Source of the DNA: an uncultured Lachnospiraceae bacterium
Lineage (GTDB): Bacteria; Bacillota; Clostridia; Lachnospirales; Lachnospiraceae
Assembly: GCA_947178145.1 (NCBI GenBank)
Contig: CAMWXE010000006.1
Coordinates: 1 to 64,000, forward strand
Direction of reading: 5' to 3'
Length of the DNA stretch: 64,000 nucleotides
Each line of letters opens with the position of its first letter. Positions within the stretch are counted from its first letter, which is position 1. Positions 46,272-51,625 of this stretch are shown here, one piece after another. Below the pieces are notes generated by a model. The model was not told where the DNA came from and ran no database searches. It saw only the letters and a program-made list of their open reading frames with translations. The position numbers and the translations under genes are program-made.

Positions 46272-47156
46272 TTACCTGATATACTTCTCCTCCAGCTTCA
46301 GCAGCAATTCGCGCAGTACCTTCAACGCGGTCGCTGTCGATGCCCCGCTTGGATCCAGCGGCGGCGACAGCTCATTCATATCACATCCCACAATATCAAG
46401 CCCGCCAATCTTTAATATCGCATCAAGCAGCTGCACAAACGTCACACCGCCTGCCTCCGGCGTCCCTGTTCCCGGAAAACAGGAGGGATCAAGCACATCC
46501 AGATCCAGCGTGAAATACACCGGCTTTCCCCTCAGCTCTTCCACGATCTTGTCAAGGCCTTCAAAATCAAACCTGCGCGTTGTCACATGCTGTTTTCCCC
46601 ACTCAAATTCCGTCCGATCCCCGCTTCGGATTCCAAACTGACAAATTCTGCCATCCCCCACAATATCCCATACCCGATGCATAACAGTGGCATGAGACAG
46701 CTTCGCACCCAGATAATCATCCCTCAGGTCTGCATGCGCATCAAAATGAATGACATGCAAATCGGGATACCTTTTCGCAACCGCCCTCACGGTGCCTAGT
46801 GTGACAAGATGTTCCCCGCCAATCATCAGCGGAAGCTTATCACTGTCAAGTATCTCCTGTGCATATGCAGTGATATCATTTAATGCCCGGTCGGTATCGC
46901 CAAAACACAGCTCCAAATCGCCTCCGTCAAATACCGCCGTATCTTCCAAATCCAAATCCTGATAAGGACTGTATGTCTCCAGCCCATAGGATTCCGCACG
47001 CATAGTTCTGCTGGCAAAGCGCGCACCGGGACGGTATGATGTCGTCGAGTCAAAAGGGGCACCGAAAATGACAATTCTCGCCTCCTCAAAAGACTTATCA
47101 CACCCTAAAAATGTTTCTATATTTCTGCCTTTTATTTTACCAGTATTGTCGCCCAT
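46272..47156 (-). CDS. speB: Agmatinase
   Basis: SpeB hydrolyses agmatine to putrescine and urea using a two-manganese centre. The 294-residue ureohydrolase shows the metal motifs GGEHLVT, HFDAHADLRDD and the LDLDVLDPSCFPGTGTPEAGG region with its two Asp, plus SRTMRAESYGLETYSP at the front. It follows speE (152 bases) and a PLP decarboxylase with an arginine-type role, giving a complete arginine to putrescine route. Start ATG 47156 uses AAAGG. Arginase and formiminoglutamase are the alternatives; neighbours favour agmatinase. Confidence 0.9.
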   Translation of the reverse strand: MGDNTGKIKGRNIETFLGCDKSFEEARIVIFGAPFDSTTSYRPGARFASRTMRAESYGLETYSPYQDLDLEDTAVFDGGDLELCFGDTDRALNDITAYAQEILDSDKLPLMIGGEHLVTLGTVRAVAKRYPDLHVIHFDAHADLRDDYLGAKLSHATVMHRVWDIVGDGRICQFGIRSGDRTEFEWGKQHVTTRRFDFEGLDKIVEELRGKPVYFTLDLDVLDPSCFPGTGTPEAGGVTFVQLLDAILKIGGLDIVGCDMNELSPPLDPSGASTATALKVLRELLLKLEEKYIR

Positions 47157-47308: not shown

Positions 47309-48160
47309 TTATTCGACTTTTTCAAGCATCTCCTCCACATAGTTTGGCAGCGCAAAAGCACCCTGGTGAAGCTGTTCGTTATAATATTTTGTCCTGATTC
47401 CCATAGATTTCCACCGGACAATATCCTGATCTTCCAACGGGCGGTATTTTTTTGATGCAAATCCAAAGAGCCAGTGTCCTGAAGGGTATGTCGGAATATG
47501 TGCCTGGTATACCCTGCTGATTGGAAAAGACTCCACAATCCGCTTGTGCGCTCTCTGCATCGCCGTCGCATCATTTGGATAAAACGGACTCTCATGCTGA
47601 TTCACCATAATTCCATCCGCCCTCAACGCCTTGTAACAATTTCCGTAAAACTCTTTGGTAAACAACCCTTCGCCTGGTCCAAACGGATCAGTCGAGTCCA
47701 CGAGAATCAGGTCATACACATTTTCATACCGCCGGACAAATTTTAGCCCATCCTCGTAATAAATATGCACCCGCTCATCGTCAAATCCGCATGCCGTCTG
47801 CTGCAGATACTGCCTGCACGCTGACACCACTTCCTCGTCAATCTCCACCAGATCAATGTGTTCTATGCTCTGATATCTGGCAAGCTCCCGCACTGTGCCG
47901 CCGTCACCACCGCCAATCACCAGAGCCTTTTTTACACAAGGATGCACTGCCATCGGCACATGCACCATCATTTCATGATAGATAAACTCATCTTTCTCTG
48001 TCAGCATCATATAGCCGTCAAGTGTCAGGAATCTGCCAAACTCCTTTGACAAAAAAATGTCAATCCGCTGAAAATCCGACTGCGACGAATAGAGCTGCCT
48101 GTCTACCTGTATCGAAAACTTCACATCCTCCGTATGCTTCTCAGTAAACCATAATTCCAT
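47309..48160 (-). CDS. speE: Spermidine synthase
   Basis: SpeE moves an aminopropyl group from decarboxylated S-adenosylmethionine to putrescine. The 283-residue protein has MELWFTEKHTEDVKFSIQV at the start, then VIGGGDGGTVRELARY (SAM-like binding loop), DLVEIDEEVVSACRQYL, and the active-site DLILVDSTDPFGPGEGLF with catalytic Asp. The start at 48160 has GGAAAGGA. It lies between the decarboxylase gene and speB, and speD, which supplies the aminopropyl donor, heads the row. Confidence 0.93.
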   Translation of the reverse strand: MELWFTEKHTEDVKFSIQVDRQLYSSQSDFQRIDIFLSKEFGRFLTLDGYMMLTEKDEFIYHEMMVHVPMAVHPCVKKALVIGGGDGGTVRELARYQSIEHIDLVEIDEEVVSACRQYLQQTACGFDDERVHIYYEDGLKFVRRYENVYDLILVDSTDPFGPGEGLFTKEFYGNCYKALRADGIMVNQHESPFYPNDATAMQRAHKRIVESFPISRVYQAHIPTYPSGHWLFGFASKKYRPLEDQDIVRWKSMGIRTKYYNEQLHQGAFALPNYVEEMLEKVE

Positions 48161-48258
48161 GTTTTCCTTTCCCTCTTTTTCTGTCTGTTTTTGCAGCACA
48201 TCTGTCGACGCAATTTGCTGCGGCCCCGGCTCTTCTGCCAGTTATCTGTAAGACAATT

Positions 48259-49710
48259 TCATCCGGATTCCTTTCTGACGTTCAATCTGTTAATCTCCAT
48301 ATCCTCCGGGCCTGTCACGGAACATCCTTTTGCCTTTGCATAACGAATATAATCAAGAATATCTCTGGTAATCAGCTCTCCCGGTGCCAGTATCGGTATT
48401 CCCGGCGGATAACACATCACAAACTCCGCACACACTGTATTCTCACATTCCGCCAGCGGTAACGACTGCTTATCGCTGTAAAACGCATCCTGCGGCGAGC
48501 AGACCACCCTCGGATTGATATATTCTGCTGTCATTAGACTGCCCCTGTCTCTTTTATACAGACGCCTAATCTCCGCAAGCGCACTCACAAGCCGCTCAAT
48601 ATCGCGCGGCCGGTCCCCCACTGACACATATGCCAATATATTTCCCAAGTCCCCAAACTCCGTCTGAATGTCATACTCATCCCGCAGGAGATCATATACC
48701 TCAATTCCTGCAAGTCCTATGGGCAGTGTATTAACCGATAGTTTCGTGATATCAAAATCATAAATGGAATCCCCGTTTACCAGCTCCCTTGAATACGCAT
48801 AGTAATCGCCAATCTGGTTAATCTCTCTTCTCGCATACTCCACCAGATCCTTCACTTTATCAAAAATCTCCTGACCATGCAGTGCCAGATTTCTCCTTGA
48901 AATATCCAGACTTGACATCAGTAGATACGAGCCGCTTGTCGTCTGCGTAATGTTAATCATCTGTCTGACAAGCCCCTCGCTCATATCCGGGCCGATCAGC
49001 AAAAATGACGACTGTGTCAGTGAACCACCTGATTTGTGCATACTCACCGCAGCCATGTCCGCCCCCGCCTCCATCGCAGTCATTGGCAGATCTTTATCAA
49101 AATAGAACTGCGTGCCATGCGCTTCATCCACCAGCACTTTCATGCCATGGGAATGTGCCAGATCTGTAATACCCTTTAAATTGGAACAAATACCGTAGTA
49201 CGTCGGATTATTCACAAGAACTGCTCTGGCATCCGGATTTTCTGCGATTGCCTTTTCCACCTCACTGCGTTTCATTCCCAATGCAATCCCAAGCTCATGG
49301 TTCATATCCGGATTGACATACACTGGCACTGCCCCGCAGAGTATCATAATATTGATCACGCTTCTGTGCACATTTCGCGGAAGGATGATCTTATCTCCCC
49401 GCCTACAGACCGACAGCACCATGCTCTGCACGGCAGATGTCGTTCCCCCTACCATGAAATACGCATGTGCCGCCCCAAATGCCTCCGCGGCAATCTCTTC
49501 TGCCTCCTTTATGACTGATACCGGATGGCACAGATTATCCAGCATTTTCATGGAGTTCACATCGACCGCAAGACACTGTTCCCCCAGAAAACTGGTCAGA
49601 TCCGGATTCCCTCTTCCATGCTTGTGCCCTGGCACATCAAATGGCACAAGTCTGTTTCTCTTCATTTCCTCCAATGCTTCCAATATGGGAGCGCGTGACT
49701 GGTCAAGCAC
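48259..49710 (-). CDS. speA: Arginine (or lysine/ornithine) decarboxylase, fold type I
   Basis: The 483-residue PLP enzyme belongs to the Orn/Lys/Arg decarboxylase major family in the short Gram-positive form without the receiver-like N-terminal domain. Seen are PFDVPGHKHGRGNP near 23-36, GGTTSAVQSMVLSV near 88-101, LVDEAHGTQFYF near 193-204 and the PLP lysine Lys226 in SMHKSGGSLTQSS. The family has members specific for arginine, lysine or ornithine; the agmatinase gene downstream makes arginine the most likely substrate, forming agmatine and CO2. It follows speD by 37 bases. Confidence 0.87.
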   Translation of the reverse strand: MLDQSRAPILEALEEMKRNRLVPFDVPGHKHGRGNPDLTSFLGEQCLAVDVNSMKMLDNLCHPVSVIKEAEEIAAEAFGAAHAYFMVGGTTSAVQSMVLSVCRRGDKIILPRNVHRSVINIMILCGAVPVYVNPDMNHELGIALGMKRSEVEKAIAENPDARAVLVNNPTYYGICSNLKGITDLAHSHGMKVLVDEAHGTQFYFDKDLPMTAMEAGADMAAVSMHKSGGSLTQSSFLLIGPDMSEGLVRQMINITQTTSGSYLLMSSLDISRRNLALHGQEIFDKVKDLVEYARREINQIGDYYAYSRELVNGDSIYDFDITKLSVNTLPIGLAGIEVYDLLRDEYDIQTEFGDLGNILAYVSVGDRPRDIERLVSALAEIRRLYKRDRGSLMTAEYINPRVVCSPQDAFYSDKQSLPLAECENTVCAEFVMCYPPGIPILAPGELITRDILDYIRYAKAKGCSVTGPEDMEINRLNVRKESG

Positions 49711-49747: not shown

Positions 49748-50569
49748 TCAATAGATATTCGTACCGCTAAATATTTCTATCATTTCCTGTCTTAAATTGT
49801 TGCTGATCTGCAGCCTTGTCTTAGGCGTAATTTCATAGATATCGGAATTAAACAGGTAATTTTGCAAGTCCATCTCCTTGATCAGCATCTTTGTGTGAAA
49901 AATATTGGCCTGATACATATTGATGTCGATCGCATCATACTTGTCTAAAATCGACTGGTCAATATAATCCTGTATGGAAGTGATCGTATGATCCATAAAA
50001 AGCTTCTTTCCTTCCACATTTCTGGTAAACCCCCGCACCCGGTAGTCCATTGTGATAATATCCGAATCAAAGCTTCCAATCAGATAATCCAATGTACTGA
50101 GCGGCGTGATCTCCCCACAGGTCGCCACGTCAATATCCACCCTGAATGTCGCAATATTTGTCTCCGGATGGTACTCCGGGTAGGTATGTACCGTAATATG
50201 GCTCTTGTCAAGATGCCCCACAATCTCATCATTGTGCTTTGCAGGCGCAAGCGTATCCTCGTAGACAAGAGCCGCACTCGCCGCACTCTTCTGCCCCGCC
50301 GGTATCATATTAGGCTCCGCTATGAGAAAAGTCACGCTCGCTCCCTGCGGCTCATAGTCCTGTCTGGATACATTCAGTACATGGGCACCAATCATATCAG
50401 TCACATGAAATAAAATTTTAGTGAGACGCTCTGAATTATACTGTTCGTCAATGTAAGCAATATAATCCTTCTGCTCGCGCGCACTCTTCGCATAACAGAC
50501 ATCATAAATATTAAAGCTCAATGATTTTGTAAGATTATTAAAACCATACAATTTTAATTTCGTCTCCAT
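49748..50569 (-). CDS. speD: S-adenosylmethionine decarboxylase, class I (pyruvoyl)
   Basis: The 273-residue proenzyme resembles the E. coli SpeD group. It cuts itself before Ser123 in GHLDKSHITVHTYPE, and that serine becomes the pyruvoyl cofactor; DVATCGEITPL carries the active-site Cys151. Product is decarboxylated SAM, the aminopropyl donor for SpeE. The E. coli-type class I form is longer than the short SpeH type found in Bacillus. The start follows GGGAGG. It is first in the polyamine row, behind a long leader with a terminator-like stem and a 14-codon reading frame. Confidence 0.93.
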   Translation of the reverse strand: METKLKLYGFNNLTKSLSFNIYDVCYAKSAREQKDYIAYIDEQYNSERLTKILFHVTDMIGAHVLNVSRQDYEPQGASVTFLIAEPNMIPAGQKSAASAALVYEDTLAPAKHNDEIVGHLDKSHITVHTYPEYHPETNIATFRVDIDVATCGEITPLSTLDYLIGSFDSDIITMDYRVRGFTRNVEGKKLFMDHTITSIQDYIDQSILDKYDAIDINMYQANIFHTKMLIKEMDLQNYLFNSDIYEITPKTRLQISNNLRQEMIEIFSGTNIY

Positions 50570-50596
50570 GGCCTGATGTACCTCCCTTCCGCTGTA

Positions 50597-50641
50597 TCAA
50601 CGCACAAAAAATGAGCGGAAACCATTCCGATCTCCACTCAT
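50597..50641 (-). CDS. Putative 14-residue leader peptide of speD
   Basis: On the minus strand ATG at 50641 to TGA at 50597 encodes MSGDRNGFRSFFVR. Its start codon is at the base of the terminator-like stem and its Phe-Phe codons lie in the T tract. The frame ends 27 bases ahead of the speD start. There is no strong ribosome binding site before it, so its translation is uncertain. Confidence 0.4.
   Translation of the reverse strand: MSGDRNGFRSFFVR
50606..50639 (-). terminator. Terminator-like stem in the speD leader
   Basis: On the minus strand GAGTGGA pairs with TCCGCTC, separated by 13 bases, followed by ATTTTTT. It lies between the probable promoter and speD, 37 bases ahead of the start, so it may work as an attenuator; it could also end transcripts from upstream genes. 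Confidence 0.65.
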
Positions 50642-50676
50642 AATAATAAATCACACTATCTGTCAGACACACATAT

Positions 50677-50682
50677 ATTATA
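50677..50682 (-). promoter_or_regulatory. TATAAT -10 box for the polyamine row
   Basis: A perfect TATAAT on the minus strand about 108 bases before speD. The -35 region is weak (TAGACT, 15 bases away), so an activator or a different spacing is possible. Confidence 0.45.
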
Positions 50683-50731
50683 TAACAAGGTGACCAGAGT
50701 CTATATAGCAAAAAACTTTACTTTTACTACT

Positions 50732-50789
50732 CTTATTGATTTTCACAAGTGGATTGTTGCGGATATCATAGTCGTATCCAATCAATAAG
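50732..50789. other. Structured element with 10-bp closing stem
   Basis: CTTATTGATT (50732-50741) and AATCAATAAG (50780-50789) form a perfect closing stem. Inside are two short hairpins, ACAA/TTGT (50745-50757) and GGATA/TATCC (50761-50779), giving a three-way-junction shape. It lies upstream of the speD promoter, so it may be part of another transcript, a mobile-element end or an unknown RNA. Confidence 0.45.
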
Positions 50790-50843
50790 GCTCTAACCGC
50801 CTTAATATTCAATAAACTTATTATACGTGATGACCTCTGTATT

Positions 50844-50857
50844 TGCAAGCGTTTTCT
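50844..50857. promoter_or_regulatory. cre-like site
   Basis: TGCAAGCGTTTTCT differs in one position from the TGNAANCGNWWNCA consensus for CcpA binding. The chance of a random match is substantial, so this is weak. Confidence 0.25.
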
Positions 50858-50903
50858 TCACTATTTCGCGTCCGGTTGTAACAGTTGTGTTACTGTTCAC
50901 AGG

Positions 50904-51015
50904 CAATGTCATTAACTTAAGGAATTTGACCAACAAATTGTACTGGAAAATGCCCAATAAATCATTGTATTTGTTCACAAACCCTAGGTATTAAGGTCTT
51001 AAGTAAATGACATTG
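50904..51015. mobile_element. MITE-like element, 112 bp, 9-bp target duplication
   Basis: Terminal inverted repeats of 18 bp, CAATGTCATTAACTTAAG at 50904-50921 and its complement with one mismatch at 50998-51015, are flanked on both sides by the identical 9-mer GTTCACAGG (50895-50903 and 51016-51024). There is no coding sequence. An 8-9 bp duplication fits several DDE transposase families; the parent element is not in this window. Confidence 0.85.
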
Positions 51016-51082
51016 GTTCACAGGGCGCATATACTGCGCATTCCGTGAGAAAGCATATTGCTTGAAAGCAAAAATCCATGTA

Positions 51083-51625
51083 TTACAGCTCCAGATTTGA
51101 CATGCGAATCGTAAGATCCATATAAATTCCAGCGGGAATATCCTCCGTAAAGCTGTACTCGTTCATATCATCCTGATAAAAATTATAAACCATAACTCTC
51201 GTCTTGTCTGCATCTACAATCCAGTATTCACGCACTCCCGCGGAACGATATTTAAAAAGTTTTATCGTGTAATCTATCCTTCTGCTGGCAGGGGACACTA
51301 CCTCTATAATCCAGTCCGGCGCACCATTGCAGCCTCTGTCATCCAGCTTGTTTTCATCACAGATAATGCAGATATCCGGCTCTACATAGCTCTTGTCATC
51401 CGCATTGATAAATACGCCAAACGGATTGATATCCACTTCGCCCTTAAAGCTGTTCCTTCTGATATATTCGCGAATCGTCGCATAGAGTTCACCGACAATC
51501 CTTTGATGATTTCTCGTCGCTGGCGCCATATAATATACCTTTCCGTCGATGAGCTCCGCTCTCTGTCCTTCCGGGAGATTATATACATCGTTAATTGTGT
51601 ATGTGTTTAATTCAGTTAGTGCCAT
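51083..51625 (-). CDS. Uma2-family (DUF820) PD-(D/E)XK nuclease-like protein
   Basis: The 180-residue protein has the Uma2 pattern: YNLPEGQRAELIDGKVYYM, SYVEPDICIICDE with the first acidic residue, DWIIEVVSPASRRIDYTIKLFKYRSAGVREYW with the Glu and Lys of the restriction-like fold, then IVDADK. These proteins are common in many copies in cyanobacteria and occur in Firmicutes; their real function is unknown. The start has AAGGAG. It is isolated between the etfA terminator and the second MITE-like element. Confidence 0.85.
   Translation of the reverse strand: MALTELNTYTINDVYNLPEGQRAELIDGKVYYMAPATRNHQRIVGELYATIREYIRRNSFKGEVDINPFGVFINADDKSYVEPDICIICDENKLDDRGCNGAPDWIIEVVSPASRRIDYTIKLFKYRSAGVREYWIVDADKTRVMVYNFYQDDMNEYSFTEDIPAGIYMDLTIRMSNLEL

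Follow-up and report, generated by a model that had tools for sequence, protein, structure and literature searches.

The speD operon and its leader

Four polyamine genes form an operon on the minus strand of the window (the whole 64,000-nucleotide stretch of DNA analysed here), in the order speD-speA-speE-speB. The first gene, speD (49748..50569, start at 50569; TIGR03331), encodes S-adenosylmethionine decarboxylase. It is followed by genes for a speA-type Orn/Lys/Arg decarboxylase (48259..49710; PF01276), for the spermidine synthase SpeE, a polyamine aminopropyltransferase (47309..48199; NF002010/TIGR00417), and for the agmatinase SpeB (46272..47156; TIGR01230). The operon lies behind a leader that carries an intrinsic terminator (50604..50641, minus strand), whose hairpin at 50641-50611 has 14 pairs and a 3-base loop, is followed by the U tract TTTTTGTG, and has a computed energy of -17.9 kcal/mol in the window.

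A promoter-like site is found farther upstream on the same strand (50820..50848), with a -35 element TTGCAA at 50848-50843, a 17-nt spacer, and a -10 element TATAAT at 50825-50820. The arrangement TTGNAA-17-TATAAT is present 5′ of the RNA element described below in 10 of 11 leaders from the genus, including that of the window, at a distance of 16-102 nt from helix P1 of this RNA. The distance is 16 nt in the window, where transcription would be expected to start a few bases 5′ of P1. Beyond the promoter, an inverted repeat with 18-nt arms (CAATGTCATTAACTTAAG / CTTAAGTAAATGACATTG, 76 nt between them) occupies 50904-51015, and bases 50889-50960 belong to a multi-copy repeat that is matched at 20 other places in the genome, in most cases over part of the stretch. 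This region looks like a MITE-type element placed directly 5′ of the speD promoter. Upstream of the leader, at 51083-51625, lies the coding region for a Uma2-family protein (PF05685), and by eye the end of a Uma2-family gene also lies upstream at loci L002, L005, L006, and L010.

An earlier note on this DNA had drawn attention to a 14-codon open frame on the minus strand (50597..50641; ATG AGT GGA GAT CGG AAT GGT TTC CGC TCA TTT TTT GTG CGT TGA; peptide MSGDRNGFRSFFVR, then stop), and had proposed that this frame encodes a leader peptide on which ribosome stalling controls the terminator. The geometry that it described is accurate. The ATG opens the terminator stem 50641-50611 and makes up its first three bases, the two Phe codons coincide with the T tract, and the stop codon is located 27 bases 5′ of the speD start at 50569. 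We compared the leader of the window with those of 11 congeners (congener L007 was left out) and of one member of another genus of the family (L030). The hairpin is present in all 13 leaders, with its sequence altered among them, and we take the terminator before speD to be real.

The peptide fares differently in this comparison. A similar full peptide is encoded by only one of the 12 other leaders (L002), where it has a GTG start (MSGNRNGFHLFYAQPRAQCV). Absence of the frame from relatives is the outcome that the earlier note had named as a refutation of its proposal. The frame in L003 begins alike (VSGNRKRF...), then diverges and runs on without a stop codon as far as speD, that in L010 ends after 5 codons, and no such peptide was seen in the remaining 9 leaders. 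Nothing like a Shine-Dalgarno sequence is present before the ATG in the window, and other short frames that start in or just before the terminator are present in most of the 12 other leaders. The conserved, translated short frame with a ribosome binding site that is typical of a leader-peptide attenuator was thus not found, and we judge the 14-codon frame, which gives no sign of being more than chance, to be incidental to the terminator. What stands from the original proposal is its regulatory core. Computation supports the view that the operon is very likely controlled by transcription attenuation at this terminator, with a polyamine as our best guess for the feedback signal. It does not support the leader peptide. 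The 151-nt stretch considered on its own has an unremarkable fold (z = -1.24), and the signal is conservation upstream of 50597..50682. The earlier note had picked the right place and most likely the wrong mechanism, its frame being incidental to a terminator that would belong to a candidate riboswitch for polyamines.

A conserved structured RNA upstream of the terminator

The conserved region is a structured RNA and candidate aptamer, represented in the window by a short form at 50687..50808 (minus strand) that ends approximately 45 nt upstream of the terminator. It was delineated by two covariance models, R1 built from nine congeners (match at 50687-50808) and R2 built from 103 sequences (match at 50688-50807, 67.8 bits), both of which include the sequence of the window in their training sets. 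The leaders share a block that ends in ...CACUUGUGAAAAUCAAUAAGAGUAGUAAAAGUAAA(n)UUGCUAUAUAGACUCU upstream of the terminator. Helix P1, as assigned from the sequence and predicted folds, is formed by the strands GGUUAGAG (50791..50798) and CUCUGGUC (50692..50699), and P2 by the strands CUUAUUGAUU (50780..50789) and AAUCAAUAAG (50732..50741). The near-invariant hairpin P3, GUAGUAAAAG...UUUUUGCUAU, lies at 50705..50730, where an alternative pairing AGAGU/ACUCU fits equally. The strand UCCACUUGUGA (50743..50753), which we call the switch strand, is the 3′ strand of helix P4 in relatives. It could be part of the aptamer fold or pair with the complementary terminator 5′ arm UUAUGAGUGGA (50633..50643) as an antiterminator. 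All of these strands are on the minus strand of the window.

The copy in the window is without the P4 5′ strand, P5, the variable hairpin that follows, and a 5′ domain that corresponds to Rfam family RF02440. Absence of the P4 5′ strand, P5, and the variable hairpin is common to the window and to L002, L003, L006, L009, and L010. Sensing by the window's copy could be altered, given that helices of most aligned copies and the RF02440 domain are missing. In L012, the P3 loop exceeds that of the congener L011 by about 140 nt (167 versus 28 for the core-to-GCTA distance), and the core is intact on both sides. Two other origins of the conserved block were rejected. A coding origin is at odds with the spacing of the two most conserved blocks, which is even over the three frames (42, 39, and 38 of 119), and a mobile repeat is at odds with the single copy in the genome that is found by R1 and by R2 alike.

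Structure was assessed with two alignments. The first (A4) comprises 103 copies, part of which were selected by an exact pattern over P2 and P3 that hides variation there. Its 42-pair structure (hairpin P0, P2, hairpin P2a, P4, hairpin P5, and P3) is formed in 93.5% of alignment cells, with 76 double-change cells compared to 20.8 ± 3.7 after shuffling (0 of 500 shuffles as high) and at most 41 when the structure is slid along the alignment. The second (A5) holds 23 copies from across the phylum (22 distinct) that were found and aligned by the model, and so leans towards the structure. In this set 93.2% of cells pair, and 32 double-change cells were observed versus 4.8 ± 2.0 after shuffling (0 of 500), with no more than 10 for the structure in slid positions. 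Little of the covariation comes from P2 and P3, which are too strongly conserved. P3 and its alternative AGAGU/ACUCU, compared on A4, are paired in 95.5% and 100% of cells, respectively, and both fit. P1, a possible closing helix, is formed in 93.5% of cells within the genus, and candidates for it can be seen by eye in some other members. The leader contains one feature that is expected of a riboswitch, a conserved structured 5′ RNA with covarying helices.

Within the genus, presence of the element goes with that of speD: it is found in 12 of 13 genomes that have speD and in none of the 25 that do not. The exception is a congener (G011, locus L005) that keeps speD and the terminator and has no element in its genome. 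There, what by eye resembles the upstream Uma2-type gene comes to its end close to the terminator, an arrangement that suggests deletion of the element. Among 30 speD loci, 12 have the core within 600 nt upstream of the gene. Those without a nearby core belong mostly to other families of the order, together with congeners L005 and L007, the latter of which has the element farther upstream of speD than 600 nt. At this locus (L007 / L040, G035:C59:11645-12214) two tandem copies of the element with equal scores precede a sugar O-acetyltransferase-like gene and then speD.

Searches beyond the genus expanded the number of representatives. At E ≤ 0.1, 50 of 397 family genomes contain an R1 match, and the best 30 of these loci were analysed. 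A pattern scan of a genome collection found at least 119 stretches with the element, including examples from Paenibacillus, Bacillus, Robertmurraya, Acetobacterium, Blautia, Mediterraneibacter, Agathobaculum, and Faecalibacterium prausnitzii, and we used the 80 listed of these stretches, minus L112. With R2, 24 of 398 genomes across the phylum match at E ≤ 0.001. One of these is the window, and among the other 23, L194 duplicates an element that is already represented in the training set by L093.

Downstream genes and the 5′ domain

To each of 119 copies (12 from the genus, 28 further loci of the family, and 79 on named contigs, some of them near-duplicates) we assigned the first downstream open frame that matches a reference set of speD, speA-type, speE, speB, carboxynorspermidine synthase, and PotA, with the reference genes checked by HMM. 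The first recognised gene is speD in 61 copies, a speA-type gene in 28, potA in 14, and carboxynorspermidine synthase in 10; one copy precedes another gene (L063) and five stretches are too short. Thus, one of these four gene types comes first in 113 of 114 classifiable copies, and the same is true for all 23 further R2 matches across the phylum (speD in 10, speA-type in 6, and carboxynorspermidine synthase in 7), although related copies inflate these and all other counts given here. The distance from element to gene is at most 530 nt, potA aside (its position was judged by the first open frame), with the exception of L007, where 1170 nt and the acetyltransferase gene intervene.

Because ABC ATPases are alike, the PotA proteins were scanned individually. 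The spermidine/putrescine ATPase family NF043075 is the best match in 13 (L074, L086, L104, and ten others), and 12 of the 14 pass the potA cut-off of TIGR01187. One protein cut by the contig (L132) has NF043075 as its best family and falls below the TIGR01187 cut-off, and another cut at its end (L140) is recognised as an ABC ATPase only. In L074, genes resembling potB, potC, and potD then follow. Overall, the element shows the cis association with genes of one pathway that would be expected of a riboswitch. Two copies have other neighbors. In L063, an element with an RF02440-like 5′ domain precedes, in place of a polyamine gene, one for a lipoprotein-like protein that carries an M28 peptidase domain. 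A congener carries a second copy (L216, G001:C82:1-4000), with the 5′ domain visible by eye, before a protein of 379 aa that has weak, below-cut-off matches to Cache domains. This copy is a misfit to the polyamine association, and its contig may be foreign to the genome.

The 5′ domain is present in 65 of the 119 copies by a looser text match, 18 copies have the motif ATGCAAATAT instead, 33 have neither, and three could not be judged. In 18 of 18 loci hand-picked among the named ones, most with the motif already visible, the Rfam family RF02440 (SpF59_sRNA, ‘ldcC RNA’, 54 nt) matches just upstream of the element. The match abuts the element in 17 of these loci and is about 52 nt away in L074. 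It also abuts the element in five of six other loci, the sixth (L069) being cut at the locus start with no room upstream. RF02440 is found in 35 of 200 genomes of the family, 34 of them above the cut-off, though not in the one congener of that set. In the genomes of the picked loci RF02440 is the 5′ domain of the same RNA. The Rfam model, 54 nt long and typed ‘Gene; sRNA’ (Rfam 15), covers neither the conserved region on the 3′ side nor the terminator and the pairing that forms the switch. Its label ‘ldcC RNA’ suggests that somebody had linked it with a decarboxylase gene. Neither the window nor its genome has an RF02440 match, and because the promoter in the window is 16 nt 5′ of P1, a transcript that starts from it could not contain this domain.

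A candidate polyamine switch

In addition to structure and gene association, a riboswitch is expected to have an expression platform with mutually exclusive folds. Sufficient sequence between element and gene is available for 112 of the 119 copies, and a simple detector found a terminator in 87 of these and none in 25. Within the aptamer, the strand that contains (C)ACUUGUG can pair with the terminator 5′ arm by complementarity. When compared to letter-shuffled arms, this complementarity reaches p ≤ 0.05 in 44 of the 87 copies and p ≤ 0.01 in 10. The mean helix score of own pairs over 84 distinct copies is 14.73 versus 13.39 ± 0.26 for permuted pairs (0 of 300 as high), an excess of which shared ancestry may explain part. 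When 18-nt windows are slid along the element, the gain relative to shuffled arms is highest on the switch strand (+5.1) and amounts to no more than about +1.2 in windows that do not overlap it. Single copies extend or shift the pairing, such as L123 (UCAAAACUUGUG with CGCAAGUUUUGA) and L011 (CCGCUUGU with ACGAGUGG).

In the window, the switch strand at 50753-50743 faces the terminator 5′ arm at 50643-50633. When the nascent chain has reached the end of this arm, the computed energies are -40.1 kcal/mol for the aptamer fold and -39.0 for the antiterminator fold (a difference of 1.1), and for the full leader the terminator state is at -55.0 versus -47.6 kcal/mol. Such near balance before the terminator and strong bias after it should be expected of a terminator that is tipped by a ligand. 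By computation, therefore, the leader has two mutually exclusive folds of the type that form an expression platform.

From these results, we think it probable that the speD leader carries a cis-acting structured RNA that works as a riboswitch and turns transcription off in response to a polyamine, spermidine being the most probable one, where direct binding, the ligand, and the direction of switching are the parts that we infer. The element in the window would be a short representative of a leader RNA that is distributed across Bacillota. If the polyamine is scarce, the strand 50753-50743 would pair with the terminator 5′ arm 50643-50633, and this antiterminator would block the terminator and permit transcription of speD. 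If it is abundant, its binding would stabilise the aptamer fold P1-P3 and keep the switch strand occupied, such that the terminator at 50641-50611 would form and transcription would stop. We favor an off-switch because of the strand logic and because end-product control would be expected for such an operon. Spermidine is the product or cargo common to synthesis that depends on SAM, to the carboxynorspermidine route, which does without SAM, and to PotABCD uptake. It is therefore the economical guess for the ligand, and SAM, dcSAM, and MTA seem unlikely.

Among the other explanations, a riboswitch that responds to some other pathway metabolite (putrescine, agmatine, cadaverine, SAM, or MTA) is the one to be taken most seriously, and we give it a minor though real chance. 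Operons that begin with a decarboxylase gene (28 of 119) or potA (14 of 119) also have a bearing on putrescine or cadaverine. However, SAM, dcSAM, and MTA are, by what is understood of these pathways, outside the carboxynorspermidine route (10 of 119) and uptake (14 of 119), and no SAM riboswitch matches the region of the window at E ≤ 5. It is unlikely, to a somewhat greater degree, that the RNA is instead a cis-acting attenuator read by a polyamine-responsive, RNA-binding antiterminator or terminator protein. The near-invariant sequence of P2 and P3 and the stretch AUAUAGACUCU could be a protein site, and the switch anatomy would be identical, but a multi-helix fold and a distribution that reaches from Lachnospiraceae through many families to Paenibacillus suit an aptamer better.

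That the element is a stand-alone small RNA, ended by the terminator and with targets elsewhere, would be in keeping with the ‘Gene; sRNA’ type of RF02440 and with the short RNA that a terminated leader would yield. The polyamine genes behind 113 of 114 classifiable copies and the antiterminator pairing both argue for control in cis, and we regard this explanation as very improbable. Ribosome stalling on MSGDRNGFRSFFVR is harder still to credit. The frame exists and overlaps the terminator, but it is not conserved in relatives and lacks a Shine-Dalgarno sequence, and a translating ribosome would presumably melt the terminator at any polyamine level. The polyamine riboswitch thus remains our preferred reading of the leader.

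Polyamine riboswitches have long been sought, and several known kinds of leader can be compared with this one. In E. coli, a polyamine gene is controlled by its leader through the peptide SpeFL, and T-box RNAs are terminator/antiterminator leaders that are common in the same phylum as the organism studied here. The leader in the window differs from speFL in having no conserved peptide. It differs from T-boxes in having no match to a T-box model and in preceding a polyamine operon rather than an amino-acid or tRNA gene. The alphaproteobacterial speF RNA motif likewise controls a polyamine gene from its leader, according to PMC11477304, and it has no Rfam match in the window. A search of the whole window with Rfam models yielded nothing at gathering scores, and at E ≤ 5 the region 50450-51150 gave only SdsR_RyeB (23 bits), L20 leader (20.6), and FopS (19.2), all far below their cut-offs.

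The closest functional parallel is a spermidine riboswitch that is a SAM-I variant with a four-stem aptamer and 13 reported examples (Salvail et al. 2023, PMC10853860). As described in that paper, it resides in leaders of speD, speE, speB, and ldcC with an intrinsic terminator and acts as an off-switch for spermidine, and its authors regard it as certain that further classes are yet to be discovered. The RNA in the window resembles it in being a polyamine-gene leader with a terminator, and the mode of action is the one proposed here. In contrast, there is no SAM-I match in the region of the window at E ≤ 5, in the Paenibacillus dendrobii locus L083 (3200-3700) at E ≤ 1, or in 18 loci at gathering scores, and because of this the RNA in the window is not a member of that class. 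We found no description of the element as a riboswitch in the literature covered, a scope that leaves aside the 224-motif catalogue (doi 10.1093/nar/gkx699) and supplementary files, and PMC8040213, PMC6429828, and PMC3675131 do not contain the searched terms in their main text. Within these bounds, the RNA class is widespread and uncharacterised, and the motif may have been listed before.

A wider proposal, which we hold in even balance, is that this RNA is a second spermidine riboswitch class, unrelated to SAM-I and more widespread across Bacillota, that has been hidden in Rfam as a 54-nt sRNA. It would govern polyamine supply in each of its three arms, namely synthesis from SAM, the carboxynorspermidine route, and import by PotABCD. 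In the window and in part of its genus, the 5′ domain and the inner helices would then have been shed and the switch kept, leaving a minimal sensor. The element would complete the partial Rfam entry RF02440, and the short form in the window offers a minimal construct. With the element present in the gut genera Blautia, Mediterraneibacter, and Faecalibacterium, as well as in Paenibacillus, Bacillus, and Acetobacterium, and with an expression platform that can be read, polyamine sensing in gut Firmicutes becomes directly testable.
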